From Gemmatimonadaceae bacterium (GTDB lineage Bacteria; Gemmatimonadota; Gemmatimonadetes; Gemmatimonadales; Gemmatimonadaceae), in assembly GCA_030647905.1 (NCBI GenBank), contig JAUSJA010000026.1:248001-312000 (forward strand): a stretch of DNA of 64,000 nucleotides, given 5' to 3'. Positions 10,906 to 54,932 of the stretch are shown in pieces. The position numbers and the translations under genes were made by a program. The stretch's first letter is position 1. Each line of letters begins with the position of its first letter. Below the pieces are notes generated by a model, which made no database searches, had not been told where the DNA came from, and saw only the letters and a program-made list of their open reading frames with translations.

Positions 10906-12498
10906 ATGTCCAACCGTCGCAGGTTTTTGCTCTTCGGAATTATCGCCGCCCCCTTGATCGCGGGCGGTTTCGTCGCGCAGGATCGTTCCGCCACCGATGG
11001 AGCGCGGCTCCTCGACCAAGTCCTGACGATCGTGTCGGGACGCTTTGTGGACAGTGTCGACGCAGCGGCGCTTTACGAAAAGGCCGCTCGCGGACTGGTC
11101 CATGAGCTCAACGATCCCTATTCCGTTCTGCTCTCCCCGAAAGAGCTCGCCACCTTCACCGCCCAGACCGGCGGTAAGTACGGCGGCGTCGGAATGGAGA
11201 TTGGCGAAGTCCAGGGGTTCATCACCGTTCAGCGTGTATTCCCTCACACGCCAGCCGAGCAGGCCGGCGTGATCGAGGGTGACCGGATCATCCAGGTGGA
11301 CACCGCCAACACGCGCGGCTGGTCCACGGCACAGGTCTCCGATGTCCTCAAGGGGCGTCCCGGCACCAAGGTCGCCGTGAAGTTCATGCGCACGGGTGTC
11401 GCCGAGCTGATCCCGGTGACGTTCACTCGCGCGAGCGTCCGCATACCGGCCGTCCCCTACACTATCATGCTCGACGGCAAGGTTGGCTACATCCCGCTTC
11501 AACAGTTCAACGAGACTGCAACCGCAGAGCTGGAAGCTTCGATCAAGCGCCTCTCCGGTGAGGGAGCGAAAGGACTTGTTCTTGATCTCCGCGGCAATGG
11601 CGGCGGATACCTGGAGCAGTCGGCTACCGTTGCCAACCTCTTCCTGAAGAAGGGACTGGAGGTCTCCAGCGTTCGAGGGCGCGCCGGCTTCCGGGAAGTG
11701 CTCTACGCGACCGATAATCCGACGGCCCCGGAAATTCCGCTCGTCGTTCTCACCGACGGCCGCACTGCATCGGCCTCGGAGATCGTCGCTGGCGCTCTTC
11801 AGGACCACGACCGCGCGGTGATCGTCGGCACCACCTCGTTCGGAAAAGGGCTCGTCCAGACTGTCTATCCTCTCGATGGCGGCTACGCCCTCAAGATGAC
11901 GACGGCCAAGTGGTATACGCCGAGCGGCCGGTCCATCCAGAAAGAGCGCAAGCTTCTTCCCGACGGATCGTTCGTCGAGGTTCTCTCCGACTCGATGGAG
12001 ACTGACTCGGTCCGGAAGTCCCGGCCCAGGTTCAAGTCCGACGCCGGCCGTATCGTCTATGGCGGCGGCGCTGTGACTCCTGACGTCATCGTCCAGCCGG
12101 ACACCCTCACCACGACAGAGCAGAAGCTGCTCAACGCTCTTGCCCCCAAGGCGCAGGTCGTTCGCTCGACACTGATCAACTACGCCGTCGAGCAAAAGGG
12201 GAACGTGCAGCCGAACTTCGTCGTCTTGAAGGCATGGAGAGACGAGTTCTACAATCGCCTCGTCGCTCAGGGCGTGAAGGTGGACAAGGCGCAGTTCGAG
12301 GCCGGCGGATCGGAAATAGATCGCCTGCTTGGCTCGAGCATCGCCCGAATCGCTTTCGGAGATTCCACCGCAAAGCGGCGTGACATCGCCGACGATGCGC
12401 AACTGCGCCGCTCTCTCGAGCTGCTAAAGCGGGGCCAGACCCAGCGCGATCTGTTCGCCGTCGCTCTTCAACCCACTACGGCATCGACGAATCGCTGA
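10906..12498 (+). CDS. Carboxy-terminal processing protease, S41 family
   Basis: 530 residues. An N-terminal signal or anchor (residues 7-24) places it in the periplasm. A PDZ domain covers about residues 85-170 (GVGMEIGEVQG, PAEQAGVIEGDRIIQVD). The protease core has VLDLRGNGGG, the nucleophile Ser in TASASEIVAGALQD and the general-base Lys in SFGKGLVQT, the CtpA Ser-Lys pair. A ~130-residue C-terminal extension follows. A long open frame on the opposite strand (505 codons) is a by-product of codon bias. Upstream neighbours do not suggest a specific substrate. Confidence 0.93.
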   Translation: MSNRRRFLLFGIIAAPLIAGGFVAQDRSATDGARLLDQVLTIVSGRFVDSVDAAALYEKAARGLVHELNDPYSVLLSPKELATFTAQTGGKYGGVGMEIGEVQGFITVQRVFPHTPAEQAGVIEGDRIIQVDTANTRGWSTAQVSDVLKGRPGTKVAVKFMRTGVAELIPVTFTRASVRIPAVPYTIMLDGKVGYIPLQQFNETATAELEASIKRLSGEGAKGLVLDLRGNGGGYLEQSATVANLFLKKGLEVSSVRGRAGFREVLYATDNPTAPEIPLVVLTDGRTASASEIVAGALQDHDRAVIVGTTSFGKGLVQTVYPLDGGYALKMTTAKWYTPSGRSIQKERKLLPDGSFVEVLSDSMETDSVRKSRPRFKSDAGRIVYGGGAVTPDVIVQPDTLTTTEQKLLNALAPKAQVVRSTLINYAVEQKGNVQPNFVVLKAWRDEFYNRLVAQGVKVDKAQFEAGGSEIDRLLGSSIARIAFGDSTAKRRDIADDAQLRRSLELLKRGQTQRDLFAVALQPTTASTNR

Positions 12499-12593
12499 GA
12501 CGATTGAAACGTAGTTCCGGCTGGCATCATGGAATTCCGTGATGCCGGCTTTTCTTGCATTATTCCCCTGTTGATTCCTCCTCCGGAGATCCT

Positions 12594-13637
12594 ATGGGTG
12601 CTGGATTGATTTCCCTCGCCGTCATTGCCGCTCTTGCGGCCCTCATCGTCTTCAAGTCCTTCAAGATCGTCGGACAGGCGGAGGTGATGGTGGTGGAGCG
12701 GCTGGGCCGCTTTCATCGAGTCGCGCGATCGGGCCTCAATATTCTGCTTCCTTTCATCGAGTTGCCACGAACTATCGACGTTCGCTACTTCGAAAGCGAT
12801 GTTACCGGTATCAAGCGCGTTACCGCCGGGCACACTTCGCGCATTGATCTTCGCGAGCAGGTGCTGAACTTCCCGAGTCAGCCGGTAATCACCAAGGACA
12901 ACGTCACCATAGACATTGACGCTGTCATCTACTACCGCGTAGCCGACCCGCAAAAGGCAACGTACTCGGTGCAGAACCTTCCCTACGCACTCGAGACGCT
13001 GACGCGAACGACACTACGCAACATCGTCGGCGAAATGGAGCTCGATTCGACACTCGGCAGCCGCGACGTGATCAACAGGCGCATGCGCGAAGTGATCGAG
13101 GAAGCATCCATCGGATGGGGAGTGGACGTGACACGTGTGGAGCTTCAGGCGATAGAGCCGCCGCGCGACATTCAACAGTCCATGGAGTTGCAGATGCGCG
13201 CGGAACGCGAGCGGCGTGCCGCCGTCACGAACGCCGAAGCCGGAAAACGCGCAGCGATTCTCGAAGCCGAAGGTGTCCGCGAATCGCAGGTTCGCCGCGC
13301 CGAAGGCGAGAAGGATGCCTCGGTTCTCCGCGCGCAGGGCCTGGCCACCGCTCGTCTCGCGATGGCCGAAGCGGAAGCCGAGGCGATTCGGCGGATCGCT
13401 GCCGCACTTCCCGAAGGGCAGGCCGCGATGTACCTGCTCGGCATGAAGTATCTCGAGGCACTTCCCACTCTCGCGCAGGGAAAGAATTCGACGATCTTCC
13501 TGCCCGCCGAAGCCGCCGGCGTGATGGGAGCGATCGGCGGACTGAGAGAATTGGTGGCGCGTGCTGCCATACCGGCGCACAGGAGCGAGATCGAACAGCC
13601 TGTTCCAGCTCCCGATGCGCCGCGGAAGTTGACTTGA
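12594..13637 (+). CDS. SPFH-domain membrane protein (paraslipin, QmcA-like)
   Basis: 347 residues from the ATG at 12594, preceded by CTCCGGAGATC. One N-terminal membrane helix is followed by the SPFH/Band-7 domain (VVERLGRFHRVARSGLNILL, DNVTIDIDAVIYYRV, TTLRNIVGEMELD) and a long Ala/Glu/Arg-rich coiled coil (residues 200-265), then a conserved YLLGMKYLEALPTLAQG segment typical of paraslipins. These proteins oligomerise in membranes. The partner NfeD is usually adjacent; here an NfeD-like gene is far away at 50145. The next small gene overlaps by 4 bases. Confidence 0.92.
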   Translation: MGAGLISLAVIAALAALIVFKSFKIVGQAEVMVVERLGRFHRVARSGLNILLPFIELPRTIDVRYFESDVTGIKRVTAGHTSRIDLREQVLNFPSQPVITKDNVTIDIDAVIYYRVADPQKATYSVQNLPYALETLTRTTLRNIVGEMELDSTLGSRDVINRRMREVIEEASIGWGVDVTRVELQAIEPPRDIQQSMELQMRAERERRAAVTNAEAGKRAAILEAEGVRESQVRRAEGEKDASVLRAQGLATARLAMAEAEAEAIRRIAAALPEGQAAMYLLGMKYLEALPTLAQGKNSTIFLPAEAAGVMGAIGGLRELVARAAIPAHRSEIEQPVPAPDAPRKLT

Positions 13638-13855
13638 CCGAGATCACGCAGGAACGCGCAGAGCGTATCGCGCGCGCCCACCCGTGTGATCACTGCGGCG
13701 AGTACAGCTTCAAGAGCCTGAAGGTCAAGCGGGCGTCCGAATTTCACCACAAGGCATTGGGTGAAGTCTGGCATGTGATCAAGACATGCGGTGTGTGCGG
13801 TATGCATCAGGAGGTAGGTATAGACACCGAAGGGGATATCGTCTACGCGACCTGA
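13634..13855 (+). CDS. Small zinc-ribbon-like protein
   Basis: 73 residues beginning with TTG that overlaps the paraslipin stop (TTGA). Two knuckles, CDHC near residue 17 and CGVC near residue 53, could bind one zinc ion, separated by a basic stretch (KVKRASEFHHK). Overlap indicates translational coupling with the paraslipin gene. The family is not one I can name. Confidence 0.7.
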   Translation: MTEITQERAERIARAHPCDHCGEYSFKSLKVKRASEFHHKALGEVWHVIKTCGVCGMHQEVGIDTEGDIVYAT

Positions 13856-13882
13856 TGCGCCGTCGCAAAAGTACAGTGGCGG

Positions 13883-14731
13883 CTAGATCCCTTCGGGCCA
13901 GTTCGGCTTGTGCGAATACTGGCCGAACACCGCCTGCAGCACGTTCTCGGGCTTGTCTGTCAAGGTTACCGCATCGAGTCTGTCTGAAAGCGGCATAACC
14001 CGGGAGAAATCCCGGTAGCGTCGGTAACTGTGCGGGAAAGTCGCAGGCCCGCCCCGCATCACCCTCGACAGCAGCATGTCGGGCACGAGGAATCGCGTCG
14101 CGGCGAAGAAGAAGTTGAGCGTCATGGGCTTCGGCAAGCTGCTCTCCACGATCCGCCTCGGCAACGATCCGTGCTTGCCCCACTGCACGTTAATCGCTAC
14201 CTGCGACTTCGGCCATCGAGTATGCAGCAACGTGCCGTGCCAGTAGGTCCAAACGTCTACCGGCGCACCCGTGCTGTCGTAGCGAAGCCACACCACCTCC
14301 TCGTCTGTCGGGACCGTGAAAGGAATCCATGCCCCGTTGACGTCGTCCCGCCACAGCAGATGGTAGGCAATCACCGACTTTGTCGGGTGGACCACGGCGA
14401 CGACCCGGGATAGCAGGAACCTCTCGTCGCGTTGGAGGTACAACACGGGTGCGAGGCTGCGCGCCATCATGGCGACACTGTCGTCTGGTGCGAGCGTGCC
14501 TTGCAAATCAATGGATCGCAAGGGGATGTGAGCGCGAGGCCCGCATCCGACCGACAGGACCGCGAGCATGACTGCGGATGTCTTCCGTACGTACTGACCG
14601 TAGTTCTGGCGTAGTAAAGCGACTCCAACAGTGAGGTTCGTGCTCCCACAGCTTACGGGGGAGGACAAGCCCTCGGAGGGCCGATGCGTAAGCCGCGTCC
14701 AAATACGTACAACCCCGCGCAAGTCCTTCAC
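13883..14731 (-). CDS. Putative lipoprotein, function unknown
   Basis: The open frame is 282 codons. A lipobox-like LSVGC lies at codons 59-63 behind a hydrophobic run (SAVMLAVL) and a basic VRK, so the first ~45 codons are probably not translated; but no ATG, GTG or TTG sits at the ideal place, and the ATG at 14569 leaves only eight residues before the Cys. The mature part is rich in aromatic residues (TYWHGTLLHTRWPKSQVAI, FPHSYRRYRDFSRVM) without a family I recognise. Its 5' end overlaps the divergent gene at 14684. Confidence 0.6.
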   Translation of the reverse strand: MKDLRGVVRIWTRLTHRPSEGLSSPVSCGSTNLTVGVALLRQNYGQYVRKTSAVMLAVLSVGCGPRAHIPLRSIDLQGTLAPDDSVAMMARSLAPVLYLQRDERFLLSRVVAVVHPTKSVIAYHLLWRDDVNGAWIPFTVPTDEEVVWLRYDSTGAPVDVWTYWHGTLLHTRWPKSQVAINVQWGKHGSLPRRIVESSLPKPMTLNFFFAATRFLVPDMLLSRVMRGGPATFPHSYRRYRDFSRVMPLSDRLDAVTLTDKPENVLQAVFGQYSHKPNWPEGI

Positions 14732-14902
14732 CTCATCAACGGTGATCGGTCAGGCGGACTGCTCAGCTGTCCTTCGTGCCCCGGACCCATCGAGCGTGAT
14801 CCCGCCCGTTATCCTCCCGCACCCATGTCGCACGTCACCCTCCGGTGTCGAAGCTGCGGCCGCACCGCGAAATACGTCGCCAGCGCGGCAGGAGCAGCCT
14901 GA
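14684..14902 (+). CDS. Small zinc-knuckle protein
   Basis: 72 residues with CPSC near residue 29 and CRSC near residue 55, spaced like a zinc ribbon. The N-terminus (MRKPRPNTYNPAQVLHLI) is basic. Two small CxxC proteins (this and 13634) flank the lipoprotein gene. Function is unknown. The start is the ATG at 14684; codon use is normal. Confidence 0.6.
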   Translation: MRKPRPNTYNPAQVLHLINGDRSGGLLSCPSCPGPIERDPARYPPAPMSHVTLRCRSCGRTAKYVASAAGAA

Positions 14903-15109
14903 AAAAAAACTCCCCTCGCCGAGCGATCGCCCGGACAATTGCACAAAACTTGCCCGCTTTTTCTCCGGCATCTATCGCTCGCGCGCCGAGACGATGATCC
15001 GGGTACTGAAACGATGTCGGCTCGAGTCGCCGGTACGATACACTGAAGCGCCACACACCGACGCATCAGTGGGTACAGTCAGGCCCCTCGGAGGGGAAAG
15101 GAAAGAGTT

Positions 15110-15316
15110 ATGGCACGCATTACCGGCACAGTGAAGTGGTTCAACGACGCGAAGGGATTCGGGTTTATCTCCAGAGAAGGCGGCCCCGATGTCTTCGTCC
15201 ACTTCAGCGCAATCTCCGGCTCGGGTTTCAAATCCCTTGCTGAGGGGGACAAGGTGGAGTTCGAAGTAGTTGAGGGACAGAAAGGCCCCCAGGCCGCGAA
15301 CGTCACTAAGGCCTGA
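15110..15316 (+). CDS. Cold-shock domain protein
   Basis: 68 residues of a single cold-shock domain, a small beta-barrel that binds single-stranded RNA and DNA. RNP1 (KGFGFIS) and RNP2 (VFVHFS) are intact. GGAAAGGAAAGAG lies just upstream of the ATG. A 207-base gap precedes it, consistent with the long regulated leader of csp genes; it holds no other gene I can see. A GC-rich hairpin follows. A second csp gene is at 35022. Confidence 0.95.
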
Positions 15317-15338
15317 ACACCAAAGAGCGAAGTTCCTG

Positions 15339-15365
15339 GCCCCGGGCAACCCCCGGGGCTTCTCT
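15339..15365 (+). terminator. Terminator hairpin of the cold-shock gene
   Basis: GCCCCGGG (15339-15346) pairs with CCCGGGGC (15352-15359) around a five-base loop, followed by the weak pyrimidine run TTCTCT. It lies 22 bases after the csp stop and directly abuts the first recognisable ku codons. Confidence 0.6.
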
Positions 15366-15497
15366 GAAAATCTCGCCGAGCCCTTCGATTCCAATCGCTA
15401 TACCGACGATTATCGCGCCAATCTGATGAAGCTCATCAAGGCCAGGATGAAGGGAAAGAAGATCAAGCTCGAGGAGCCCGCCGAAGAGTCGGCATGA
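15360..15497 (+). pseudogene. ku: Ku protein remnant (C-terminal ~45 codons)
   Basis: The frame encodes SENLAEPFDSNRYTDDYRAN, then LMKLIKARMKGKKI and an acidic end, stopping at 15495-15497. This is the Ku C-terminal pattern: a Pro-Phe-Asp turn, Tyr-x-Asp-x-Tyr-Arg, and a Leu-Ile-x-x-Lys helix with a Lys-Gly-Lys tail. The rest of Ku, about 220-240 residues including the DNA-encircling beta-barrel, is missing; the sequence upstream is instead the csp gene and its terminator. No start codon precedes the conserved part. ligD follows after 9 bases, the usual ku-ligD order, so this is what is left of the end-joining operon's first gene. Confidence 0.82.
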
Positions 15498-15506
15498 GCC
15501 TGTTCC

Positions 15507-18260
15507 GTGACGACACTCACCCGTCGCGCTAAAAGCGCCAGACAGCAGCTCGCCGAGTATCGCAGAAAGCGCGATTTCGCGAAGACTGCCGAGCCTTCCG
15601 GGAGCGAGCCGACTTCCGAGGCCGACCGTCTCCGCTTCGTCATACAGAAACACGCCGCATCTCACCTTCACTTCGATCTTCGCCTCGAGCTCGACGGCGT
15701 GATGAAGAGCTGGGCCCTTCCGAAGGGACCGAGCACCGACCCTTCAGTGAAGCGACTGGCAATGCAGGTTGAGGATCATCCCATCGATTACAACACCTTC
15801 GAAGGGACGATTCCGGAGGGAGAGTATGGCGCTGGAACCGTGATGCTCTGGGACACTGGCAGATACACGGCAGACGGAGTCGCCCCTGAAGAAGCCGGGC
15901 ACACAATCCGCACGGGCTATGAGAGGGGCGAGCTGAAGGTCACATTCTTCGGCAGCCGGATGCGCGGCTCATGGGCGCTGGTGCGAACCAAGCTTTCGCG
16001 CGGCAGGGTTACCTCGTCCAAGCCGCAGTGGCTTTTCATCAAGCGCCGAGACGAGTACGCATCGAGCAATGACGTCGTCGCGGAGAACATGACTTCCGTC
16101 ACCACTGGACGCACCATGGAAGAGATCGCCGAAGGTCGGAGCAAAGTGTGGCGCGGCAACCGTTCGAAGAACGATCGAAAGTCAACGGACTTCGCTTCGC
16201 TCGCGCGCGAGCTCGAGCCGATGTACGCCAGCATCGGTGTGGCGATCCCCGGCGACGGGTGGACGTTCGAGCCCAAGTACGACGGAGTACGCGTGCTGGC
16301 CTTCGTCACCGCTGGTGAAGTTTCACTCATCACCAGGAATGGCAAGGACAAGGCGGCGCAGTTTCCGGAGATCACCGACGCGCTCCAGGCGCTGGCAAAG
16401 AAGCGAAAGAAAGATTTCGTGCTCGATGGCGAGATCGTAGCGCTGATCAATGGAAAGCCCGGACGCTTTCAAAAGCTGCAGAGTCGGATGCACGTGAAGG
16501 GATCACACGTCATCGCCCGGCACCGAAGCTCGACACCCGCAGCTCTCGTGCTTTTCGATATCCTGGCGGCCGGCAACGACATTCTCCTTTGCGAGCTGTG
16601 GACCACGCGGCGAGCCCGGCTCGTGAAGGAGCTTGGCAAGCACACCTCCTCTCAGATCCGGATAACTGAATCTGGTGGAGGTAACGGCGGCAGGATGCTC
16701 GCCCTGGCGCGGAAGCAGGGCTGGGAAGGGATCATCGCCAAACGCACCGACTCGCTCTATGAGCCCGGCGTTCGGACCCGCGCATGGCTCAAGCTCAAGA
16801 TCGAGTTCAGGCAGGAGTTCGTCGTCGGCGGCTTCACCGAGCCCCGCAAGTCACGACAGCACCTCGGCGCACTTCTGCTCGGCTGCTTCGACCACAACCG
16901 TTTCATTTACGTCGGACATGCAGGTGGCGGGTTTACTGGCGCGGGGCTCGCGGAGATGTACCGTCGGTTGAAGCCGCTCGAGCAGAAGAACTCTCCATTC
17001 GAGGAGACGCCGAAGACCAACGAGCGCGCCCATTGGGTCAAGCCGAAGGTCGTGGTGGAGGTGAAGTTCAACGAATGGACGAGCGATGGAAGGCTTCGCC
17101 AGCCGATCTACCTCGGCATACGTGATGACAAGAAGGCGACAGACGTAGGACGCGAGAGCACCAGCATGCAGAATAAGAACGGAAGGACAGAGACAACGAT
17201 CAGAGATTCCGCCGCGAGCGCCACGTCGAAACCAACTGCTCGCCGGCGTATCTACGCGCAGCGCACCGTCGCGTCGGGATCTCCCGCGGTGAAAGCCCCG
17301 CAACGCAGCGGAAAACCGATTGCGCTGGAGAAGATCCTCGCCCAGCTCGACGAGATTCAAAGCGGCGGCGGCGACGGCCGACTCGAAATCGCGCCCCATG
17401 CGAGCCTCGACGTCACCAATCTCGACAAGGTCTTCTTTCCGAAGAAGAAGCTCACGAAGGGCGATCTAATGCGGTACTACGTCACTGTCGCGACACTGAT
17501 CCTTCCGGTCATGAAGGATCGCCCGCTCGTGCTAAAGCGGTTTCCCGATGGCGTTGAAGGCCCTTCGTTCTTTCAGCAGAACGCCGGAGAGCCGCCCGAG
17601 GTCGTTCACACCGAGAAGATTCACGCGCAGGACGGCTCGACGAATGTCCGAATCATCGGGGGTGACCTCGCAACGCTGCTCTACACAGTGCAGCTCGGCA
17701 GTATTTCGGTGGATCCATGGCATTCGCGGCTCCAGTCGCTCGATCATGCAGACTACAGCATCATCGATCTGGATCCGGGACCGCGGGCTCCGTTCAGCCG
17801 CGTCGTCGAGGTAGCGCAATGGGCACACGAGGCGATGGACGATCTGGGGCTTGGTGGCGCTATCAAGACGTCCGGTTCCACAGGACTCCACATCTACATT
17901 CCGCTTCCGCCGAAGACGCCCAACGAGGCGGCGACGCTGGTCGCGCGGATCATCGCCACCCGCGTGAGCGAGGCGCATCCGAAGGCTGCCACCATCAAGC
18001 GATCGGTGAAGGCGCGGGGTGCTACGACGGTGTACGTGGACTACCTGCAGAACGTCACCGGGAAGACCGTCGCCGGGGCCTACTCCGCCCGAGCCAATCC
18101 CGATGCCATGGTGTCGACGCCCCTCGCATGGGACGAGCTTGCCAACGACCTCGATCCCCGTGATTTCACAATCGAGTCTGCGCCACAGTGGTTCGCTGAA
18201 GTCGGCGACATATGGAGCGCTCAGTTGAAGAAGAAGAATTCCCTGAAGGCGCTGGTCTAG
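15507..18260 (+). CDS. ligD: Multifunctional DNA ligase D
   Basis: 917 residues with all three LigD modules. The 3'-phosphoesterase domain is N-terminal (about residues 45-185; HLHFDLRLELDG, PKGPSTDP). The ATP-dependent ligase is central (about 240-550), with the nucleotidyl Lys in EPKYDGVR and the OB-fold segment VGGFTEPRKSRQHLGALL. The primase-polymerase domain is C-terminal (about 630-900; DLMRYYVTVATLILPVM, SSTGLHIYIP-like KTSGSTGLHIY, YSARANPDAMVSTPL). It fills, trims and seals broken ends in bacterial end joining, normally recruited by Ku. Start is GTG at 15507. The gene is intact although ku upstream is not. Confidence 0.96.
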   Translation: MTTLTRRAKSARQQLAEYRRKRDFAKTAEPSGSEPTSEADRLRFVIQKHAASHLHFDLRLELDGVMKSWALPKGPSTDPSVKRLAMQVEDHPIDYNTFEGTIPEGEYGAGTVMLWDTGRYTADGVAPEEAGHTIRTGYERGELKVTFFGSRMRGSWALVRTKLSRGRVTSSKPQWLFIKRRDEYASSNDVVAENMTSVTTGRTMEEIAEGRSKVWRGNRSKNDRKSTDFASLARELEPMYASIGVAIPGDGWTFEPKYDGVRVLAFVTAGEVSLITRNGKDKAAQFPEITDALQALAKKRKKDFVLDGEIVALINGKPGRFQKLQSRMHVKGSHVIARHRSSTPAALVLFDILAAGNDILLCELWTTRRARLVKELGKHTSSQIRITESGGGNGGRMLALARKQGWEGIIAKRTDSLYEPGVRTRAWLKLKIEFRQEFVVGGFTEPRKSRQHLGALLLGCFDHNRFIYVGHAGGGFTGAGLAEMYRRLKPLEQKNSPFEETPKTNERAHWVKPKVVVEVKFNEWTSDGRLRQPIYLGIRDDKKATDVGRESTSMQNKNGRTETTIRDSAASATSKPTARRRIYAQRTVASGSPAVKAPQRSGKPIALEKILAQLDEIQSGGGDGRLEIAPHASLDVTNLDKVFFPKKKLTKGDLMRYYVTVATLILPVMKDRPLVLKRFPDGVEGPSFFQQNAGEPPEVVHTEKIHAQDGSTNVRIIGGDLATLLYTVQLGSISVDPWHSRLQSLDHADYSIIDLDPGPRAPFSRVVEVAQWAHEAMDDLGLGGAIKTSGSTGLHIYIPLPPKTPNEAATLVARIIATRVSEAHPKAATIKRSVKARGATTVYVDYLQNVTGKTVAGAYSARANPDAMVSTPLAWDELANDLDPRDFTIESAPQWFAEVGDIWSAQLKKKNSLKALV

Positions 18261-18270
18261 CACCGGGACG

Positions 18271-18579
18271 TTAGCGGGAGCTGACCTTTCTCAGGGGAAG
18301 GTCAAGTTGATCGGCCTTGGCTGCGGGCTCGTCTCGGGGGGAGCTGCTCTCGAACGTCGGATCGCTGCTCTCGTCCACCATGTGCGTGAGCTTGTAATAC
18401 AAATGGAGCGCGTTGACCGGGGCGATGAAGCTCCTTCGCCCGGCCCGCGAAATGGCCACCGCCTCCTCGCGGACGCGGCGGGGCAGGTCCTGCGCCATCG
18501 GGTGGGCCAGGAGGCGCCTGATTTCAGATGTATCTCTCGCCAACAGTGCAGCGCAGAGGCTGTCCAGGTATGCGAGCAT
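18271..18579 (-). CDS. Small hypothetical protein under a NrtR-like operator
   Basis: 102 residues, helical, starting at the ATG at 18579 with CCGGAG upstream. The N-terminal half (YLDSLCAALLARDTSEIRRL, HPMAQDLPRRVREEAVAI) is better structured than the acidic, polar tail. A 21-bp imperfect palindrome matching the one before the NrtR-like gene lies 29-49 bases upstream and covers a TACAAT sequence. I do not recognise the family. Its control by the adjacent regulator is an inference from the shared operator. Confidence 0.65.
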   Translation of the reverse strand: MLAYLDSLCAALLARDTSEIRRLLAHPMAQDLPRRVREEAVAISRAGRRSFIAPVNALHLYYKLTHMVDESSDPTFESSSPRDEPAAKADQLDLPLRKVSSR

Positions 18580-18607
18580 CGGTCTCCGGTGGGATCTTAA
18601 TCAAACC

Positions 18608-18628
18608 TTAGGTACACATTGTAACTAA
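18608..18628. promoter_or_regulatory. Second NrtR-like operator
   Basis: TTAGGTAC and GTAACTAA, separated by ACATT, make an imperfect palindrome (7 of 8 arm positions pair). Arm ends and five-base spacer match the operator at 19373-19393. On the minus strand it contains TACAAT, a good -10 hexamer for the gene starting at 18579. Confidence 0.65.
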
Positions 18629-18685
18629 TACACGCGGAGCGCAATATGTGCCAGTATCCTTCGATTTCCGGTACAGTCCTTTTAC

Positions 18686-19360
18686 TTAGGACGAAAGAAG
18701 GTCCAGTCTGATACCCCGCTGGGCCGGCCGACGTTTCCTCGGGGCATACCGGTAGAGCTGGGCGGGTCTTCCCCGTCCCTCGCTCCTCCATTCGTCCGTC
18801 GGCTCCACCAGCCAGGCCGCCTGCAGTGCCCTGCGAAAGCTTGCCTTGTGCAACCTCTTGGCCAGCAACAGCTCGTACATTTGCTGGAGCTCGGTCAGGG
18901 TAAACATTTGTGGTAGAAAACGGAAAGCGACCGGAGACTGGTCCATCCGGCCACGGATCATACCCACCGAAGCGTCCAGAATCTGCCGCTGTCTCAGGGC
19001 CAGCTGAGGGACGCCGTCAAGCGGAAACCAGGCGTAGACACCGCCCACCGGCGACGGCGTACCCATCGGAACGAGGCCGGCGTAGGCCACCGAAACGTCG
19101 AGATCCGAAGGATGACGCCTCCCGTCCCCGAACGCTCCGACCTGCTCCATCCATCCGGGCTCACCGACACCCACCGATTTCGCGATACGCGTGGCCGAAG
19201 CCTCCATCATCTCGCTTTGCCGCGGCGCGTCCCATGGCAGCATCCACTTCTCTCGCCCTTCGGGCGAGCGGCAGAGAAGCACCGCAAGCTGCCCGCCCAC
19301 CGCTGTCAGCAAAACGATGTCGATGGCATACGAGGGCTTTCGGGATTTGCCGTCAGACAT
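18686..19360 (-). CDS. NrtR-like transcriptional regulator (Nudix fold plus winged helix)
   Basis: 224 residues. The N-terminal part (to about 140) is a Nudix fold whose catalytic box is degraded (PWDAPRQSEMMEASATRIAK instead of G-x5-E-x7-REUxEE), as in Nudix-derived regulators. The C-terminal part is a winged helix (FTLTELQQMYELLLAKRLHK, SFRRAL, GRPAQLYRY), the NrtR arrangement. Family members sense ADP-ribose or related nucleotides and repress NAD or sugar metabolism genes. A perfect palindrome lies inside its own promoter (19372-19399), and a second copy precedes the next gene, so autorepression is likely. The ligand is unknown. Confidence 0.85.
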   Translation of the reverse strand: MSDGKSRKPSYAIDIVLLTAVGGQLAVLLCRSPEGREKWMLPWDAPRQSEMMEASATRIAKSVGVGEPGWMEQVGAFGDGRRHPSDLDVSVAYAGLVPMGTPSPVGGVYAWFPLDGVPQLALRQRQILDASVGMIRGRMDQSPVAFRFLPQMFTLTELQQMYELLLAKRLHKASFRRALQAAWLVEPTDEWRSEGRGRPAQLYRYAPRKRRPAQRGIRLDLLSS

Positions 19361-19371
19361 TGTACCGCGAA

Positions 19372-19399
19372 TTAGTCACTTCTCGTGACTAATGTCAAG
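19372..19399 (-). promoter_or_regulatory. Promoter and operator of the NrtR-like gene
   Basis: On the minus strand TTGACA (19394-19399) and ACTAAT (19372-19377) are 16 bases apart. A perfect palindrome with nine-base arms (ATTAGTCAC / GTGACTAAT, spacer TTCTC) fills 19372-19394, between and over the two hexamers. The predicted start of transcription is within about ten bases of the ATG at 19360, so the mRNA is nearly leaderless. Confidence 0.75.
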
Positions 19400-19500
19400 C
19401 CCGGATTTGGGGGTTAGTATCAACTTGCTAATTAATAGCGATCCGGAGGAGGGGAATATATACGACCTTTCGCGCACAACGGACAACCAGATACGGCTGA

Positions 19501-21294
19501 TTATCTGTCGCGCGCCGCTCTGACGATTCCCGTGCCGCGGGGAACGATGCGATTCTCCAGCGGAATCGAGATCGGCAGCTTCCCCCCAATTACATTCTTT
19601 CCGAGAAGCGCCCGTGCCGCGGCTGTCTGCGAAAGCGGAAACCCGCCCCACGCCACGACATAGGTCGGGACCCATGGTATCTGCTGTAGCAGATACGGAT
19701 TGCCGAAACTCACTACTATCGGCCGCTTCCCTCTTGTCGTGAGCCGCCCGATGAACGACGCCAAGGCCTGTGGAGCGCTCGCCGATACCGCGTCCCAGTT
19801 CTGGCCTACATAAGAGCTCACAACCGTCACGTCTGCCGAATCGGCGGCGCGCTCGATCCTGGTATAGTCGGCCGCCGGATCTTCGGAGGCGAGAAACTCC
19901 GCGCGCAGATTTCGCGCTCCGCTCCGCAACTCGCCGTTGAACGCCACTCCCGCAGAGAGATCGGCCCGGCGCCCCACAGTTACAGAGAGAACACGAGGGT
20001 TGCCGCTCAGTGCCAGTGGCACTTCTCCAAGCGAATCCTTCACTAGCGTGATCGACCGCTCCGCGGCGCGGCGCGCCATTGCGGCATGCGAGCTGTCTCC
20101 AACTATGAAGCGGAGTGAATCGAGGCTTACGAGCTTCCGGCGGTCGAGACCTAGTTCCCGCTTGGCCTGCAGAATCCGCCGCACGGATTCGTCGAGTCTC
20201 GCTTCCGTGAACCTGCCTTCCTTCACACCCGCCACCACCGCGTCAATCGTCTGCGTGACATCGAGCGGCTGAATCAGGATATCTACCCCGGCCGTCACGG
20301 CCCGCTTCGCCGCTTCAACGGCGCCGTACTGCTCGAGCACACCAGCCATGTCCATCGCGTCCGAAATAATGATGCCCTTGAACTGCAGCTCGTTGCGAAG
20401 AAGTCCCGTTAAAACCTTCTGCGAGAGCGTTCCGGGAACACCAGAGGAGTCGAGCGCGGGCATCGCGCCGTGAAATGACATTATCGCGCCAACGCCGCTG
20501 TTGATGGCCGCGCGAAATGGTACCAGTTCGACACTATCGAGCCTGCTTCGGCTCACAGTGACGACAGGAAGGGCAAGATGCGAATTAGTTCCGGTGTCCC
20601 CGTGACCAGGGAAATGCTTGCCCGTCGCTATCATACCGTTCGCCTGAACGCCCCGGATGAATGCCGCCCCGAGCTGCGCCGCCATCGCCGGGTCCTCGCC
20701 GTAGGACCTGGTGTTGATGACGGGGTTCGCCGGATTGTTGTTTACGTCCAGAACCGGCGCATAGGCGATGTGAATCCCGAGCGCCCGGCCTTCCAGGGCC
20801 GTCAACCGCCCCTGTTGGTACGCGAGAAGCGTATCTCCCGTAGCACCGATCGCCATTTCCGGCGGAAACACGACGGCGCCGCCGAGATCGATCGCATTGG
20901 GAATGAAATATCCGCCCCGCGCGCGGAAGCCGGCGCCGGCTTCGAGGTCCGCTCCAAACAGCAGCGGCACCAAGCTCATCTCCTGCATCGCGTTCAGCTT
21001 TACCGCGAGCTCGGTCGGAGAACCGACCGATATCGTGAAGCCGCCAACCTTATCCTTCCGGATGTAGCCGGAAAGCCTCTGCCACTGGGGCGAGTCGCCC
21101 GAAGCGTAGTCGCCGAGAACCGTTGGCCAGACCATCTGGGCGGTCTTTTCGCGAAGCGTGAGACTCGCCAGAACCGAGTCGGCCCATTCGGACCGTGATA
21201 CCGGCGGCGGTCGGTTCCCGGGGCTTGCCGAACCGGCCGTCGTACAACCAGCAGCAACCGCCGCCACAAGTATCAGCAAGCTCTTGAGCCGCAT
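19501..21294 (-). CDS. Glycoside hydrolase family 3 lipoprotein (beta-N-acetylhexosaminidase-like)
   Basis: 597 residues from the ATG at 21294, followed by a lipoprotein signal (MRLKSLLILVAAVAAGC). The GH3 barrel shows KHFPGHGDTGTNSH (about residue 225), which carries the His-Asp of NagZ-type enzymes, and the likely nucleophile Asp in IIISDAMDM. A C-terminal domain (about 410-597) follows, as in longer GH3 members. It should cleave N-acetylglucosamine-containing oligosaccharides such as cell-wall or chitin fragments outside the cytoplasm. The NrtR-like gene lies downstream on the same strand. Confidence 0.92.
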   Translation of the reverse strand: MRLKSLLILVAAVAAGCTTAGSASPGNRPPPVSRSEWADSVLASLTLREKTAQMVWPTVLGDYASGDSPQWQRLSGYIRKDKVGGFTISVGSPTELAVKLNAMQEMSLVPLLFGADLEAGAGFRARGGYFIPNAIDLGGAVVFPPEMAIGATGDTLLAYQQGRLTALEGRALGIHIAYAPVLDVNNNPANPVINTRSYGEDPAMAAQLGAAFIRGVQANGMIATGKHFPGHGDTGTNSHLALPVVTVSRSRLDSVELVPFRAAINSGVGAIMSFHGAMPALDSSGVPGTLSQKVLTGLLRNELQFKGIIISDAMDMAGVLEQYGAVEAAKRAVTAGVDILIQPLDVTQTIDAVVAGVKEGRFTEARLDESVRRILQAKRELGLDRRKLVSLDSLRFIVGDSSHAAMARRAAERSITLVKDSLGEVPLALSGNPRVLSVTVGRRADLSAGVAFNGELRSGARNLRAEFLASEDPAADYTRIERAADSADVTVVSSYVGQNWDAVSASAPQALASFIGRLTTRGKRPIVVSFGNPYLLQQIPWVPTYVVAWGGFPLSQTAAARALLGKNVIGGKLPISIPLENRIVPRGTGIVRAARDR

Positions 21295-21299
21295 AGCCT

Positions 21300-21578
21300 T
21301 CAGTGCGAGATGGTTCCCTGCTTGCTCGTGTCGATCTCCGACCCGGCTCCTGTCTTGAACAGGAATGCGGACATGTTCCGCGTGAGGAACGAACGGGCCT
21401 GCGGATCCATCACGTCCAGCCCGTAATGGTTGATGAGCATCGTCTGCTGCTTGCCCCAGTCCGCCCAGCACTGGCGACAGGTTTCGCTTACGACACGCGC
21501 GCCGATGGGTCCCGGAAACGGCGGCTTCTCGAACCCTTCCCGAGTCTGCCCGCAGCGCGAGCAGGTAACGTCAGCCAC
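21300..21578 (-). CDS. YggX-like Fe(II)-trafficking protein with four cysteines
   Basis: 92 residues from a GTG at 21578. The YggX signature is clear: a Pro-Gly-Pro-Ile-Gly turn, then WADWGKQQTMLINHYGLDVM and RNMSAFLF. YggX proteins support Fe-S cluster repair and iron handling. Unlike the Escherichia coli form, this one has two cysteine pairs, CSRC near residue 6 and CRQC near residue 34, so it may bind a metal itself. The stop of the desaturase lies two bases upstream, so the genes are cotranscribed; the desaturase needs a di-iron centre. Confidence 0.85.
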   Translation of the reverse strand: MADVTCSRCGQTREGFEKPPFPGPIGARVVSETCRQCWADWGKQQTMLINHYGLDVMDPQARSFLTRNMSAFLFKTGAGSEIDTSKQGTISH

Positions 21579-21580
21579 CC

Positions 21581-22363
21581 CTACAACCCCGCGTACTCGA
21601 TCTTCGCCAATCCGAAGAACGACAGAAGACGCAGATACATCCAGCCGATGTCGAACTCGTACCACTTCGCCTTGAACTTCGCGGAGTGGGGATCGGCGTG
21701 GTGATTGTTGTGAAGCTCCTCACCCCCGAGCCAGATCGCGATGGGCAGCATGTTACGACTCTGGTCCTTCACGCTGAAATTGCGATAACCGACCGCGTGG
21801 CCAACCCCATTGATGATTCCCGCAGCCCAGAATGGGATCCAGATCATCTGCGCTCCCCACACCAGTGGTCCGACGAAGAAGCCGAAGAGCCACACGTCCA
21901 CGGCAAGCATCAGCAGAATGCCAAGCGAGTTCCGACGCGCCAGAACATGACGCTCGAGCCAGTCGTTCGGCGTCCCTTTTCCATACTTGTCGAGGACCCC
22001 GGGCTGCCGCACCGCTTTCCTATAGTAGAATGCTCCCTTGAGGACGATGTTTCTGAGCCCTTCTACCAACGGGCTGTGCGGATCTCCCTCTCGGTCAGCG
22101 AAGGCGTGGTGCTTTCTGTGGCAAGCCACCCATTCCTTGGTCACGATGGCCGTGGAAAGCCACAACCACAGGCGCATCGGGAGGGCGGCCAGATAGTGCA
22201 GCTTGACGCTGCGATGTGTCTGGGCGCGATGCAGGAACAGCGTCACACAGACGTTGGTGAGATGACCGGCGATCACGATGAAGAGAACCGGCTTCCACCA
22301 ATCCGCTGCCCAGCTTCCAAAATCCGGCATTTGCGACGACTCCGTTGTTTGAGCGAACACCAT
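21581..22363 (-). CDS. Membrane fatty-acyl desaturase (delta-9 type)
   Basis: 260 residues with hydrophobic segments and the three His boxes of the acyl-CoA desaturase family: HRAQTH (about residue 46), CHRKHH (about 81) and LHNNHH (about 221). These bind a di-iron centre that introduces a double bond into saturated acyl chains to adjust membrane fluidity. Start is the ATG at 22363, with MPDFGSW eleven codons later as an alternative. It forms a tight pair with the iron-trafficking gene downstream. Confidence 0.92.
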   Translation of the reverse strand: MVFAQTTESSQMPDFGSWAADWWKPVLFIVIAGHLTNVCVTLFLHRAQTHRSVKLHYLAALPMRLWLWLSTAIVTKEWVACHRKHHAFADREGDPHSPLVEGLRNIVLKGAFYYRKAVRQPGVLDKYGKGTPNDWLERHVLARRNSLGILLMLAVDVWLFGFFVGPLVWGAQMIWIPFWAAGIINGVGHAVGYRNFSVKDQSRNMLPIAIWLGGEELHNNHHADPHSAKFKAKWYEFDIGWMYLRLLSFFGLAKIEYAGL

Positions 22364-22462
22364 CCTTTCTCGCTCAATCTACCCGGCTTGCGCTACGCCT
22401 GCCAACTGATCATCCCGGCTGACCTTGCGTCTCCAACCCCTTCTGCCTAGCGTCCCGCGCAC

Positions 22463-23596
22463 ATGACCGGATCGGGGAAAAAGAAACGCAGCGATGGCGA
22501 CGCATCGGATCGCGCCGTCCACGGCAGAGCGACCCCCGATGGGACGCGGCGACTGTCCTCCCGCTTCCGCCATGCTTTCGCCGGTGATTTTTACCGCGAG
22601 ACCTCGATGGGTCTCGCCGTCTCATCCATCGGCATGGGCACCTATCTCGGCGAATGTGACGACCGGGAGGATGCACGATATGCCCGGCTGCTCGCGACCG
22701 GTATCGCGCATGGACTGAACGTGCTCGACACGGCGATCAACTATCGCTGCCAGCGCTCGGAGCGCGCCGTCGGTCGCGCGCTGAAAGAGGCTCTCGCATC
22801 GGGCAGTGCATCACGCGATGAGATCGTCATCTGCACCAAGGGCGGATACGTGCCGCTGGAAGGGTCGCCACCGGACTCTCGCGACGACTACGATGCATAC
22901 CTGCGCGAGCAATATTTCGACCGCGGCATCATGAGCCGGGAAGATCTCGTCGCGGGCGGGCATTGCCTTCGGCCGCGGTTCCTCGCTGACCAGATTGACA
23001 GAAGCCGCCGGAATCTCGGCGTGGAATGCATCGATCTTTACTATCTGCACAACCCCGAGCAGCAGCTCGATACACTGGACCGGGCTCGATTCCTGTCAGT
23101 TCTCCGCGAAGCATTCGCCGAGCTCGAGTCGCAGGTCGCAGCCGGCCGGATCGCGGCGTACGGCTGCGCCACGTGGCATGGTTTCAGGGTTTTCGCGGCA
23201 GGCCGAAATTACCTTTCGCTCGAGGAGCTTCTGGCCGTCGCGCGCGATGTTGGCGGAAGCGGCCATCACTTCCGCGCGATTCAGCTGCCCATCAACCTGG
23301 CCATGACTGAAGCGGTGAGAGCTCCCACGCAATCCGTTGACGGCAGACACGTAGCGCTGCTCGCACTCGCCGAAGAGTTCGGCGTTTCCGTCTTCGCCAG
23401 CGCTTCACTGATGCAGGCACAGCTCGCTGGAAATCTCCCCGATACGGTCAGATCGCTCTTCCCTCTCGACACCGACGCACAGCGCGCCATCGCGTTTGTT
23501 CGGTCCCTGCCCGTTGCCACCGCGCTTGTCGGCATGCGATCGATCGACCACTTGACCGAGAATCTGGGCGCCGGCCGCGCCGTCACTCAATCCTGA
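22463..23596 (+). CDS. Aldo/keto reductase
   Basis: 377 residues of (beta/alpha)8 type. A variable ~45-residue leader precedes SMGLAVSSIGMGTYLGE. The catalytic Asp is in LDTAINYR and the Lys in VICTKGGY; the LVGMRSIDHLTENL end is typical of the NADPH-binding part. Most relatives reduce aldehydes with NADPH. An internal segment (DLYYLHNPEQQLDTL) is characteristic. Substrate unknown; the gene is intact and stands alone. Confidence 0.88.
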   Translation: MTGSGKKKRSDGDASDRAVHGRATPDGTRRLSSRFRHAFAGDFYRETSMGLAVSSIGMGTYLGECDDREDARYARLLATGIAHGLNVLDTAINYRCQRSERAVGRALKEALASGSASRDEIVICTKGGYVPLEGSPPDSRDDYDAYLREQYFDRGIMSREDLVAGGHCLRPRFLADQIDRSRRNLGVECIDLYYLHNPEQQLDTLDRARFLSVLREAFAELESQVAAGRIAAYGCATWHGFRVFAAGRNYLSLEELLAVARDVGGSGHHFRAIQLPINLAMTEAVRAPTQSVDGRHVALLALAEEFGVSVFASASLMQAQLAGNLPDTVRSLFPLDTDAQRAIAFVRSLPVATALVGMRSIDHLTENLGAGRAVTQS

Positions 23597-23639
23597 GATC
23601 GTTCATCGCCCGCATCGTGCTATCCACTACGGCGATACG

Positions 23640-24677
23640 GTGCGCATTGGTATCCGCGACGTAGGCTGCGGGGGTCGAAGAGAATTGCCGAGCCATCACC
23701 ATAAGGGCGCTTTCCGGAATCCCTGGCCGGATTCCGCGCCGCACGGAGTCGGGGGGCTTATCGGGTGGATGCTGACGAGATCCCGCCAGCAGCCCGCTGT
23801 GGTTCCCGCTGCGCATCGCATGCGTCCGGTAATCGCGTCACCTGTCCGGCGTCCCGCGGAGCGAGTCGATACGCTGACGATCACGTGGATAGGACACAGC
23901 TCGTTTCTTATCCAGTGCCGGGGCCTCAACATTCTCACCGATCCGATATGGTCGGATCGTGCCTCGCCTGTTTCGTTCGCCGGACCGCGCCGGCTTGTTC
24001 CACCGTTTCTGCGTCTCGAAGACCTGCCGCCGATCGACGTGACGCTGATATCGCACGACCACTACGATCACCTGGATGACCCCACAATCGGACGGTTGAT
24101 CGGGCGCTTTCCGGCAATGTGCTGGCTCGCCCCGCTTCGTGTCGGAGGTTTTCTCGAGCGACGCGGCGCGGCAAACGTGAAAGAGCTCGACTGGTGGCAG
24201 GAGCACGAGACCGCCGGCATCATCATCGGCTGTACTCCCGCCCAGCATTTTTCCGGACGCTATCCGTGGAACAGAAACTCGACTCTCTGGTGCGGGTGGA
24301 CGCTGTCATTTGGTCGCCCTCGTGTCTTTTTCGCAGGCGATACCGCGCTGCACCCCGAGTTCGGCGCGATTGCGGAGCGTTTCGGTCCGTTCGATATGGC
24401 GATCCTGCCCATCGGGGCCTATGAGCCGCGCTGGTTCATGCGGCAAGTGCACATGAATCCGACAGACAGCATCGCTGCGTTCCAGCAGCTGACTGCAGTT
24501 CATCCCGACCATCCATGCATCATGGTGGGATCGCACTGGGGAACGTTCCGGCTCACCGATGAGCCGGTCATGGAGCCGCCGATTCTCGCACGCGAGATCT
24601 GGTCGCGCGCCAGCTTGTCGCCCAACCTGCTCTGGATTCTCGCGCACGGAGAAACCCGCGAAGTCCCGGCTCTTTGA
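23640..24677 (+). CDS. Metallo-beta-lactamase-fold hydrolase, NAPE-PLD-like
   Basis: 345 residues starting with GTG. The early motif HHHKGAFRNPWP matches the conserved lead-in of NAPE-PLD-like proteins, supporting this start. The metal site shows ISHDHYDHLD (about residue 140), with further ligands in PAQHFSGRY, FFAGDTALH and GSHWGTF. Mammalian NAPE-PLD cleaves N-acylphosphatidylethanolamine; bacterial relatives are little studied. No transmembrane segment is clear, but a lipid substrate is plausible. Confidence 0.85.
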   Translation: MRIGIRDVGCGGRRELPSHHHKGAFRNPWPDSAPHGVGGLIGWMLTRSRQQPAVVPAAHRMRPVIASPVRRPAERVDTLTITWIGHSSFLIQCRGLNILTDPIWSDRASPVSFAGPRRLVPPFLRLEDLPPIDVTLISHDHYDHLDDPTIGRLIGRFPAMCWLAPLRVGGFLERRGAANVKELDWWQEHETAGIIIGCTPAQHFSGRYPWNRNSTLWCGWTLSFGRPRVFFAGDTALHPEFGAIAERFGPFDMAILPIGAYEPRWFMRQVHMNPTDSIAAFQQLTAVHPDHPCIMVGSHWGTFRLTDEPVMEPPILAREIWSRASLSPNLLWILAHGETREVPAL

Positions 24678-24804
24678 ATGGATGCATTCACGCGCGGCTT
24701 CATCGTGCTGTTTTTTTATTATGCAACGACAATCACATCTGTTATAGTTTGTGCGCGGAAGTTGCTACAGAGTGACATGGAACCCCTACATTGGAGCTCA
24801 TAAC

Positions 24805-25254
24805 ATGGCTGCAGCCAGGAAGTCGTCGCGCGGTGGTTCGAAGGGCAGGAAGAGAAGTGGCGGTAGTTCCGGCGGCCGGAAGCCGTCGGCTCGCAAGTCA
24901 TCCTCTCGCGGCTCCAGCGCGAAGAAGAGCGCCAGAAAGAGCGGCGCGAAGAAGTCGTCCGCACGGAAGAGCACGAGGAAGAGCACCAGGAAGAGCGCGT
25001 CGAAGCGCGCCTCATCTGCCCGCAAGTCTTCCGCAAAGCGTGGTACAACCAGTCGCAAGCGCGCGACTTCCGGACGCAAGGTATCTCTGCCAAGTCGCAA
25101 GACCGTGAAGAAAGCTGCATCCGGCGTTACGAAGCGGGCCAAGTCCCTCGCCAAGCGTGTCAGCCGTGTCGCCACGGGAGTGGTTCAACAGGCTGTGGCG
25201 GGCGCTGAGCAGGCCGTTGACGCCACCAAGGAATTCGTTCAGGACCACACCTGA
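24805..25254 (+). CDS. Histone H1-like Ser/Lys/Arg-rich protein
   Basis: 149 residues from the ATG at 24805. Residues 1-110 consist of repeats such as SARKSS, KKSARKSG and STRKST with almost no hydrophobic residues; residues 112-149 form an amphipathic helix (SGVTKRAKSLAKRVSRVA, TGVVQQAVAGAEQAVDATKE). It should coat or compact DNA like other bacterial H1-like proteins. The frame opens further upstream, but the region there is AT-rich and looks non-coding. The gene ends at a long perfect hairpin. Confidence 0.82.
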   Translation: MAAARKSSRGGSKGRKRSGGSSGGRKPSARKSSSRGSSAKKSARKSGAKKSSARKSTRKSTRKSASKRASSARKSSAKRGTTSRKRATSGRKVSLPSRKTVKKAASGVTKRAKSLAKRVSRVATGVVQQAVAGAEQAVDATKEFVQDHT

Positions 25255-54157: not shown

Positions 54158-54878
54158 ATGCGAAAAGTAATTCTTGGCGTATTGACATTGTTTTCAACGC
54201 CAGCAATAGCGCAGCAACCAGACAGTAATGCGTCAATTCCACAAATTGGCGTTAGCGCCCGCGGAGAGGTAAAAGTTGTGCCAGACCGTGCCACTATTCA
54301 GATCAGCGTTCAGACCAAGGCGGAGACTGCTGCGGCAGCTGCCACTGTGAATGCGCGGAAGCAGAAGGCTGTGATTGACGCGCTGCGAGCTCTTGGCATT
54401 GGCTCGAGCGACATTGCGACGATCAGTTACAGCGTTTACCCCGAGCAGCGTTATGAGCCTAACAGAGAGCCGGTGGTAGTTGGCTACAACGTGACGAATA
54501 CGCTCTCGGTCGAGCTCAAGTCACTGACGCTGCTTGGTCCTGCGATCGATGCGGCTCTGGCGAAGGGAGCGAACATGATCACTTCGCTTCAATTCTACGC
54601 CTCAAATACCGAGGCTGCTCGCCAGGAAGCCATCGCCTTGGCTGTACGCAAGGCGGCGGTCGGACGCCGAGTCGGCCGCTAGGGCGGCGGGTGGGTCCAT
54701 TACAGGGCTGCTCGAGGTGAGTATCGGGGCTTATTTCCCTCCACCCCCACGTTCGTTCGAACTCAAGGCGCGTGGTACGGTCGCATCTGTAGAGTCTGAT
54801 ACGCCCATTTCACCCGGGGATCAAACCGTGGCTGTGGACATCACCACGCGTTGGAGGTTCGCTCCCTCGGGACGCTAA
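54158..54878 (+). pseudogene. SIMPL-domain (DUF541) protein with single-base frameshift
   Basis: A signal peptide (MRKVILGVLTLFSTPAIA) leads into a SIMPL domain (IPQIGVSARGEVKVVPDRAT, QKAVIDALRALGIGSSDIAT, YNVTNTLSVELKSL). The frame ends early at TAG (54680-54682). A second frame continues the same family as RSDAESAARAAGGS, LLEVSIGAYFPPPPRSFELK and ITTRWRFAPSGR to TAA at 54876-54878. One extra base in the GGCGGCGG run (about 54653-54658) accounts for the break; without it the product would have 239 residues, normal for the family. It may be a true mutation or a sequencing error. The 53863-54157 gap before it has no gene. Confidence 0.85.
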
Positions 54879-54916: not shown

Positions 54917-54932
54917 TTTTTCACGTGAAACA
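54917..54932. promoter_or_regulatory. parS site
   Basis: TTTTTCACGTGAAACA differs at one position (second base) from the bacterial parS consensus TGTTTCACGTGAAACA. It lies 72 bases before parA. A looser CACGTG-centred sequence, TGTTTCCACGTGGCACA (54882-54898), is close by and may be a weaker site. Confidence 0.9.

Follow-up and report, generated by a model that had tools for sequence, protein, structure and literature searches.

Regulators of the NrtR family and its Bacteroides AraR branch normally have an impaired Nudix box (PMC4666351). In AraR, Arg180 and Asn181 intercalate into or contact the DNA (PMC4666351). The distinguishing feature of RefZ in Bacillus is a set of palindromes at conserved, origin-proximal positions, the RBM sites (PMC6657595), and Noc controls replication initiation in S. 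aureus (PMC5540599). Published beta-clamp-binding motifs include QL[SD]LF (PMC3919608) and the hexapeptide QL[SP]LPL, of which Hda carries the form QLSLPL (PMC3836487).

Here we describe a Gemmatimonadaceae locus with an NrtR-like regulator gene and a neighboring small gene, each preceded by a similar palindrome. It lies in a 64-kb window, by which we mean the whole stretch of DNA analyzed (Table 1). The genomes used for comparison were mostly draft MAGs.

An NrtR-family regulator and its operators

The regulator matched the Pfam profile NrtR_WHD (1.4e-20). Its closest solved relatives in the PDB were AraR (1.9e-20), then NadQ and SoNrtR. An AlphaFold2 model (pLDDT of 89.8) superposed on AraR with a Z score of 23.0 and on DNA-bound SoNrtR with one of 21.5, over approximately 205 to 217 residues. 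Together, Pfam, the PDB matches, and the model give a Nudix-fold N-terminal domain and an NrtR winged helix, in agreement with the original prediction of an NrtR-like regulator. That prediction had also called the Nudix site degraded and the domain a probable sensor, and this held as well. I59, S62, and V63 replace all three catalytic glutamates, which argues for a sensor rather than an enzyme. The named relatives were Gemmatimonadaceae MAGs and Roseisolibacter. Mean conservation was 0.86 for the winged-helix residues of the regulator versus 0.54 for its Nudix part.

The recognition segment HKASFRR was invariant in all 32 clade members, and canonical paralogues differed from it. At the positions of AraR Arg180 and Asn181, the clade has Ala and Ser. 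The half-site is TTAGTGT in other phyla (for example, TTAGTGTAGGACATACACTTA) versus TTAGTNRC in the clade. The change in the recognition helix from DKRNF to HKASF goes together with a change in the half-site.

The equivalents of three SoNrtR residues that contact ADP-ribose (Arg98, Lys76, and Asn43) have been lost from the regulator. In its clade, Arg98 is replaced by Ser or Gly and Lys76 is replaced by Val, and H83 and R123 are new and invariant. R31, the equivalent of the phosphate-contacting Arg41 of SoNrtR, was present in 17 of the 32 clade members, and R82 was present in 26. Of the AraR residues that contact arabinose (Arg34, Arg86, and His131), the first two have counterparts in R31 and R82, and the third, at position 124, is Gln (His in 9 of 32). 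These sequences make ADP-ribose, which had been named among the ligands to try, a weaker candidate. The basic pocket suggests that the ligand might be anionic. No NAD gene was found at the sites of this genome for which the context was read; this count leaves aside three weak sites on C1, C3, and C27.

Table 1. Coordinates of the features discussed (window positions unless stated otherwise)
Feature	Position	Strand	Sequence, score, or basis
Regulator, NrtR-like, 224 aa, degenerate Nudix and winged helix	18686-19360	-	Pfam, PDB matches, model
Recognition segment HKASFRR, residues 171-177	18830-18850	-	DKRNFRR/K in canonical NrtR/AraR
Operator 1, in the regulator's own promoter	19372-19392	.	TTAGTCACTTCTCGTGACTAA
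-35 TTGACA, abuts operator 1	19393-19398	-	CTTGACW conserved in relatives
-10 ACTAAT, overlaps operator 1	19371-19376	-	ACTAATT conserved in relatives
Operator 2, precedes the small gene	18608-18628	.	TTAGGTACACATTGTAACTAA; PWM 21.5; conserved in relatives
Operator 3, 42 bp (~4 helical turns) upstream of operator 1	19414-19434	.	PWM 19.3
Small gene, 102 aa, helical domain (1-70) and disordered tail	18271-18579	-	No family match; AF2 model
C-terminal QLDLPL, residues 91-96, clamp-binding-type hexapeptide	18292-18309	-	Tail counts, published motif
Origin-array site inside Nif3-like CDS	58086-58106	.	PWM 19.0; synonymous shuffles 0/3000
dnaA	324348-325736 on 596-kb contig		

Operator 1 has the predicted perfect nine-base arms (ATTAGTCAC/GTGACTAAT, spanning 19371 to 19393). 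It occupies the whole 16-nt spacer that separates TTGACA from ACTAAT and extends into the -10 element, and the regulator ATG is at 19360. A palindrome of approximately 21 bp in the gene's own promoter is a family trait, and this arrangement suggests the autoregulation that had been predicted. The arms of operator 2 match at 8 of 9 bases. These two operators were the only two matches to TTAG-N13-CTAA in the window, where 0.09 was expected. We also used a PWM trained only on the promoters of the regulator in this genome and in relatives. It scored operator 1, which was in the training set, at 28.4 and operators 2 and 3, which were not, at 21.5 and 19.3. Under an order-3 Markov null, 0.017 sites per 64 kb are expected to score at least 18. 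Both of the predicted operators were recovered. Operator 3 was not part of the prediction and was found by the PWM.

Both promoter sites were kept in approximately 40 Gemmatimonadaceae genomes. Absence of the operators from relatives with both genes would count against the prediction, but they were conserved in most such genomes. Operator 1 is mostly preceded by CTTGACW and located approximately 30 nt upstream of the start codon, and among approximately 51 family loci it scored below 12 only in G102, G078, and G114. Three near relatives have a second, upstream site in the regulator promoter at a spacing close to that of operators 1 and 3 (-74/-32 in G096 and L209 and -71/-31 in L210). Operator 2 is mostly TTAGTTGCAAWRTGTAYMTAA, approximately 40 nt before the small gene. 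In 35 syntenic loci, the two promoter windows contained 55 sites scoring at least 10, versus 5 elsewhere in 260 kb, 3 or 4 of which occupy the place of the small gene. The original prediction had operator 2 covering a TACAAT. The site before the small gene is real, but the hexamer is mostly TGCAAT or TGCAAA in relatives, and we dropped this -10 element as evidence because it is not conserved.

The two genes do not always occur together. Genus g13 has the small gene without the regulator, and there the operator 2 palindrome has been lost (scores of 2.0 and 5.4). Some genomes have the regulator and lack the small gene. Because the genes are adjacent and losses are few, their co-occurrence at the genus level is suggestive without settling the matter. 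A different small gene is driven from the same promoter-operator in genera g11 and g23, which suggests that the regulatory slot can outlive its content. This replacement protein (RVVTLDDGTRW...ARLVSE..., at L227 4742-5107 and L222 4779-5156, and also in G032) is uncharacterized and had no match in Pfam.

The original prediction of a compact two-gene regulon was not supported. The genome scan that it called for found five matches to TTAG-N13-CTAA in 3.1 Mb, including operators 1 and 2. There is also an array of sites near the origin (see below), and in several other genera the motif is upstream of a SIMPL-domain gene. Therefore, ordinary regulation probably occurs too. The SIMPL-domain gene of this genome has no operator-type site upstream. 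It is split into two frames (window positions 54248 to 54854, with matches at 302248-302655 and 302657-302854 on C26), by either a frameshift or an assembly error. Just after it, at positions 54919 to 54930 of the window, is a parS-like sequence, TTTCACGTGAAA, which is distinct from the regulator palindromes. A ParB gene follows at 55761 to 56696, so the window reaches an origin-proximal segregation locus.

A small protein with a clamp-binding-type tail

The small protein had no match in Pfam, NCBIfam, or PHROG, and when single members of its family were compared with Pfam, every match was above 0.01. Among 249 sampled genomes of the phylum, strong matches were confined to Gemmatimonadaceae. 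It is a new family. The AF2 model has helices over residues 2 to 70 and a disordered tail, and a Foldseek search with it returned nothing usable (E of 0.75 or worse). The best structural match, to Hpt-type helical bundles, had a Z score of 4.7, which may reflect only a common arrangement, and the helical domain has no convincing match to a known fold.

Length and sequence vary freely among the tails of the family, apart from a terminal QMELPL, QIELPL, QTELPL, or QLDLPL. A motif of this QxELPL type was present in 52 of 57 distinct tails, compared to an average of 0.16 for shuffled tails, with the pattern having been written after the tails were inspected. Judged from sequence and model, a clamp-binding motif lies in an accessible segment, and the small protein is probably a beta-clamp-binding protein. 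That is a better description than the original one, a protein of unknown function, although it is true that it belongs to no known family.

The gene order around the locus (window positions 10906 to 25254) is conserved through the family: desaturase, YggX, glycosidase, regulator, small gene, LigD (convergent), cold-shock protein, SPFH, and CtpA. LigD is a convergent neighbor in many genomes and was considered as a partner of the small gene, but this was rejected. At several loci with the small gene, the neighborhood examined contained no LigD match, so the adjacency seems to be a matter of synteny and not of a functional pairing.

Palindromes around the replication origin

Genome-wide counts were made by pattern searches, and PWM scans were made on selected stretches. 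With up to two mismatches, the genome has 14 sites, and the 596-kb contig with dnaA accounts for 11 of these. Six sites scoring at least 12 were present in the 60 kb surrounding dnaA, where 0.08 was expected. They are in the Nif3-like gene, polA, rnpB, and mutS, and at the start and in the interior of a metallo-beta-lactamase-fold gene. Eight 20-kb stretches elsewhere in the genome had one weak site in total (10.2).

This origin region had been picked after its sites were seen. Therefore, we repeated the test in seven relatives, using stretches chosen by dnaA position alone (743 kb). These contained 51 sites, 4 of which lie in promoters of the regulator or the small gene (in G010, G013, and G074). 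For 300 permuted palindromic PWMs, the mean was 3.2 and the maximum was 18. There was 1 site in 320 kb of non-origin stretches and 1 in 200 kb of origin stretches from G038 and G007, which have no regulator. The regulator-less genomes G007, G034, G058, and G038 had no site genome-wide at one mismatch, and the reversed-pattern control had two to four in each.

Genera g1, g4, and g10 have a clear array, in g20 it is thin near the origin, and g2, g8, and g9 have few or no strict sites at the thresholds used. Two g20 genomes, G128 and G108, have approximately 24 sites each over many contigs, versus 2 and 5 for the reversed control, and this scatter is possibly a genome-wide expansion of the array. 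Most array sites of our genome are not in promoters. Array sites before SIMPL or hydrolase genes may be ordinary operators in the species that have them. We also considered that all of the extra sites are promoters of further regulon genes, but for this genome the intragenic positions and distances from dnaA make that untenable.

Several sites are inside coding genes. Six genomes from three genera share the mutS palindrome (TTAGTNGC...AACTAT), even though the intervening codons change. It contains a TTA codon, and no other leucine codon of this mutS gene is TTA (TTA makes up 2.8% of leucine codons in the seven genes counted). In polA, the peptide LVTIRDDL is encoded by TTAGTAACGATACGAGACGAT, and similarly in G096, G074, and G050, whereas the regulator-less G038 encodes LVTIREDL by CTGGTGACGATCCGCGAGGAT and has no site. 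The hydrolase gene follows the same pattern, with the site absent from a regulator-less genome that has a near-identical peptide. The sites in all three genes are kept across genera with the rare TTA codon, and only 0 to 6 of 3,000 synonymous shuffles reached the observed scores of intragenic sites. This suggests selection on the DNA rather than the protein. Individual sites turn over: G010 and G013, which have the regulator, retain the site in the hydrolase gene and lack those in mutS and polA. The Nif3-like site was not kept at its position in relatives. The rnpB site (L005 5722-5742, G000:C26:321721) is also the P3 stem of RNase P RNA. That stem fits the operator motif in this genome, G096, G010, and G013, but not in other relatives, so it could be an RNA stem or a DNA site. 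By sequence, then, origin-proximal sites occur at conserved positions, a working likeness to RefZ and Noc.

A possible replication module and its alternatives

These observations might be explained if the regulator is an NrtR-derived autorepressor that marks the origin region and controls a clamp-binding protein, in a module for control of replication or of the origin domain. We give this an even chance. It draws on the sites and their conservation, the clustering at the origin, the dependence of sites on whether the regulator gene is present, the degeneration of the Nudix box, and the motif in the tail of the small protein. The regulator would be a dimeric NrtR-family repressor, with its Nudix domain as a pure sensor, that binds 21-bp palindromes of the form TTAGTNNC-N5-GNNACTAA. 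It would sit between its own -35 and -10 elements and block the promoter, probably helped by the upstream tandem site, and it would also repress the small-gene promoter. Ligand binding, or titration of the repressor, would free both promoters, and the small protein would dock on the beta sliding clamp through QLDLPL. The same repressor would occupy the array, approximately 50 kb either side of dnaA, with many sites inside polA, mutS, and other genes. A promoter-switch role is unlikely there, and the regulator might instead mark the origin region. We favor a module with a metabolite input because the coregulated product bears a clamp-binding motif. The fuller version is one to which we lend a little under even credence. 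In it, an NrtR-family metabolite sensor has become an origin-region factor on a position-conserved array, and a metabolite signal is coupled to replication via the clamp-binding partner.

One alternative is an ordinary local autorepressor that acts only on its own gene and the small gene and, in certain species, on SIMPL and hydrolase genes, with the array as a by-product of an AT-rich origin or as scattered weak operators. The promoter sites are indeed the strongest and most conserved, SIMPL genes have an upstream site in at least 10 relatives, and origin DNA is AT-richer (55 to 59% GC versus 62 to 65%). However, Markov models of local composition and permuted palindromic PWMs yield far fewer sites, many sites are in coding sequences at conserved positions, and regulator-less genomes have no array sites. 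We consider this explanation rather unlikely. The main variant of the replication-module reading is a titration timer. Origin duplication would double the decoys and dilute the repressor, so that both the regulator and the clamp-binding protein would be produced once initiation has occurred and would damp further initiation, as for Hda and YabA, which are clamp-dependent initiation regulators. It would suit the sites on both flanks of dnaA, the clamp motif in the other product, and the distance from the regulator gene to dnaA (44 to 96 kb in relatives with both on one contig and approximately 58 kb here). Decoy number varies from a few to 24, though, and a timer needs no conserved fixed positions, so we doubt it to a similar degree.

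Binding of the regulator to the motif is deduced from sequence, and another protein might bind it, with the NrtR-like gene and the small gene merely as targets. NrtR-family genes in other phyla have TTAGT...ACTAA palindromes upstream, motif and regulator co-occur and decay together, and the recognition helix covaries with the motif, all of which make this very unlikely. Least probable of all is a classical NrtR, that is, an ADP-ribose-responsive repressor of NAD metabolism whose small protein has an unrecognized NAD role. Family membership and the arginines R31 and R82 fit it, but the loss of Arg98, Lys76, and Asn43, the new invariant H83 and R123, and the lack of NAD genes at the sites with context read do not. 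Given the conserved cluster of its sites around the origin, often inside unrelated genes, the regulator probably has a part in controlling the replication or positioning of the chromosome and not NAD metabolism.

To our knowledge, control of replication initiation and origin organization are uncharacterized in Gemmatimonadota, and a search of the open-access literature on the phylum for Nudix and replication origin found nothing. If the replication-module reading is correct, then a sensor-type repressor has taken on the part of a chromosome-positional factor, a role for which its family is not known. There would also be a new family of clamp-associated proteins and possibly a direct connection between metabolite level and the machinery of replication. 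The DNA sites are concrete, some of them inside polA and mutS, and open to simple binding assays.

The regulator shares with the NrtR family (SoNrtR, mycobacterial MsNrtR, and Agrobacterium NadQ) the Nudix and winged-helix fold, the impaired Nudix box, and the autoregulatory palindrome. It differs in HKASFRR, the half-site, the altered pocket, the origin-proximal array, and targets with no NAD gene among the contexts read. Its closest solved relative is in the Bacteroides AraR/XylR branch, which also reuses the Nudix fold as a nonenzymatic sensor (PMC4666351), but AraR His131 and Asp130 are Gln and Arg in the regulator, and the targets are not sugar genes. RefZ is likewise a transcription-factor-type protein with a few palindromes near oriC at conserved positions. 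However, it is a TetR-family, Bacillus-only protein with five sites, whereas our regulator has a Nudix and winged-helix fold, more sites, several of them in genes, and a partner with a clamp motif. Noc and SlmA are also DNA-binding proteins with nonuniform chromosomal sites, but Noc is a ParB relative and SlmA is a TetR-family protein, and neither has a sequence relation to the regulator. The small protein has the Hda type of clamp-binding hexapeptide (PMC3836487). Unlike Hda and YabA, it lacks an AAA+ or zinc domain and carries the motif at its C-terminal end.
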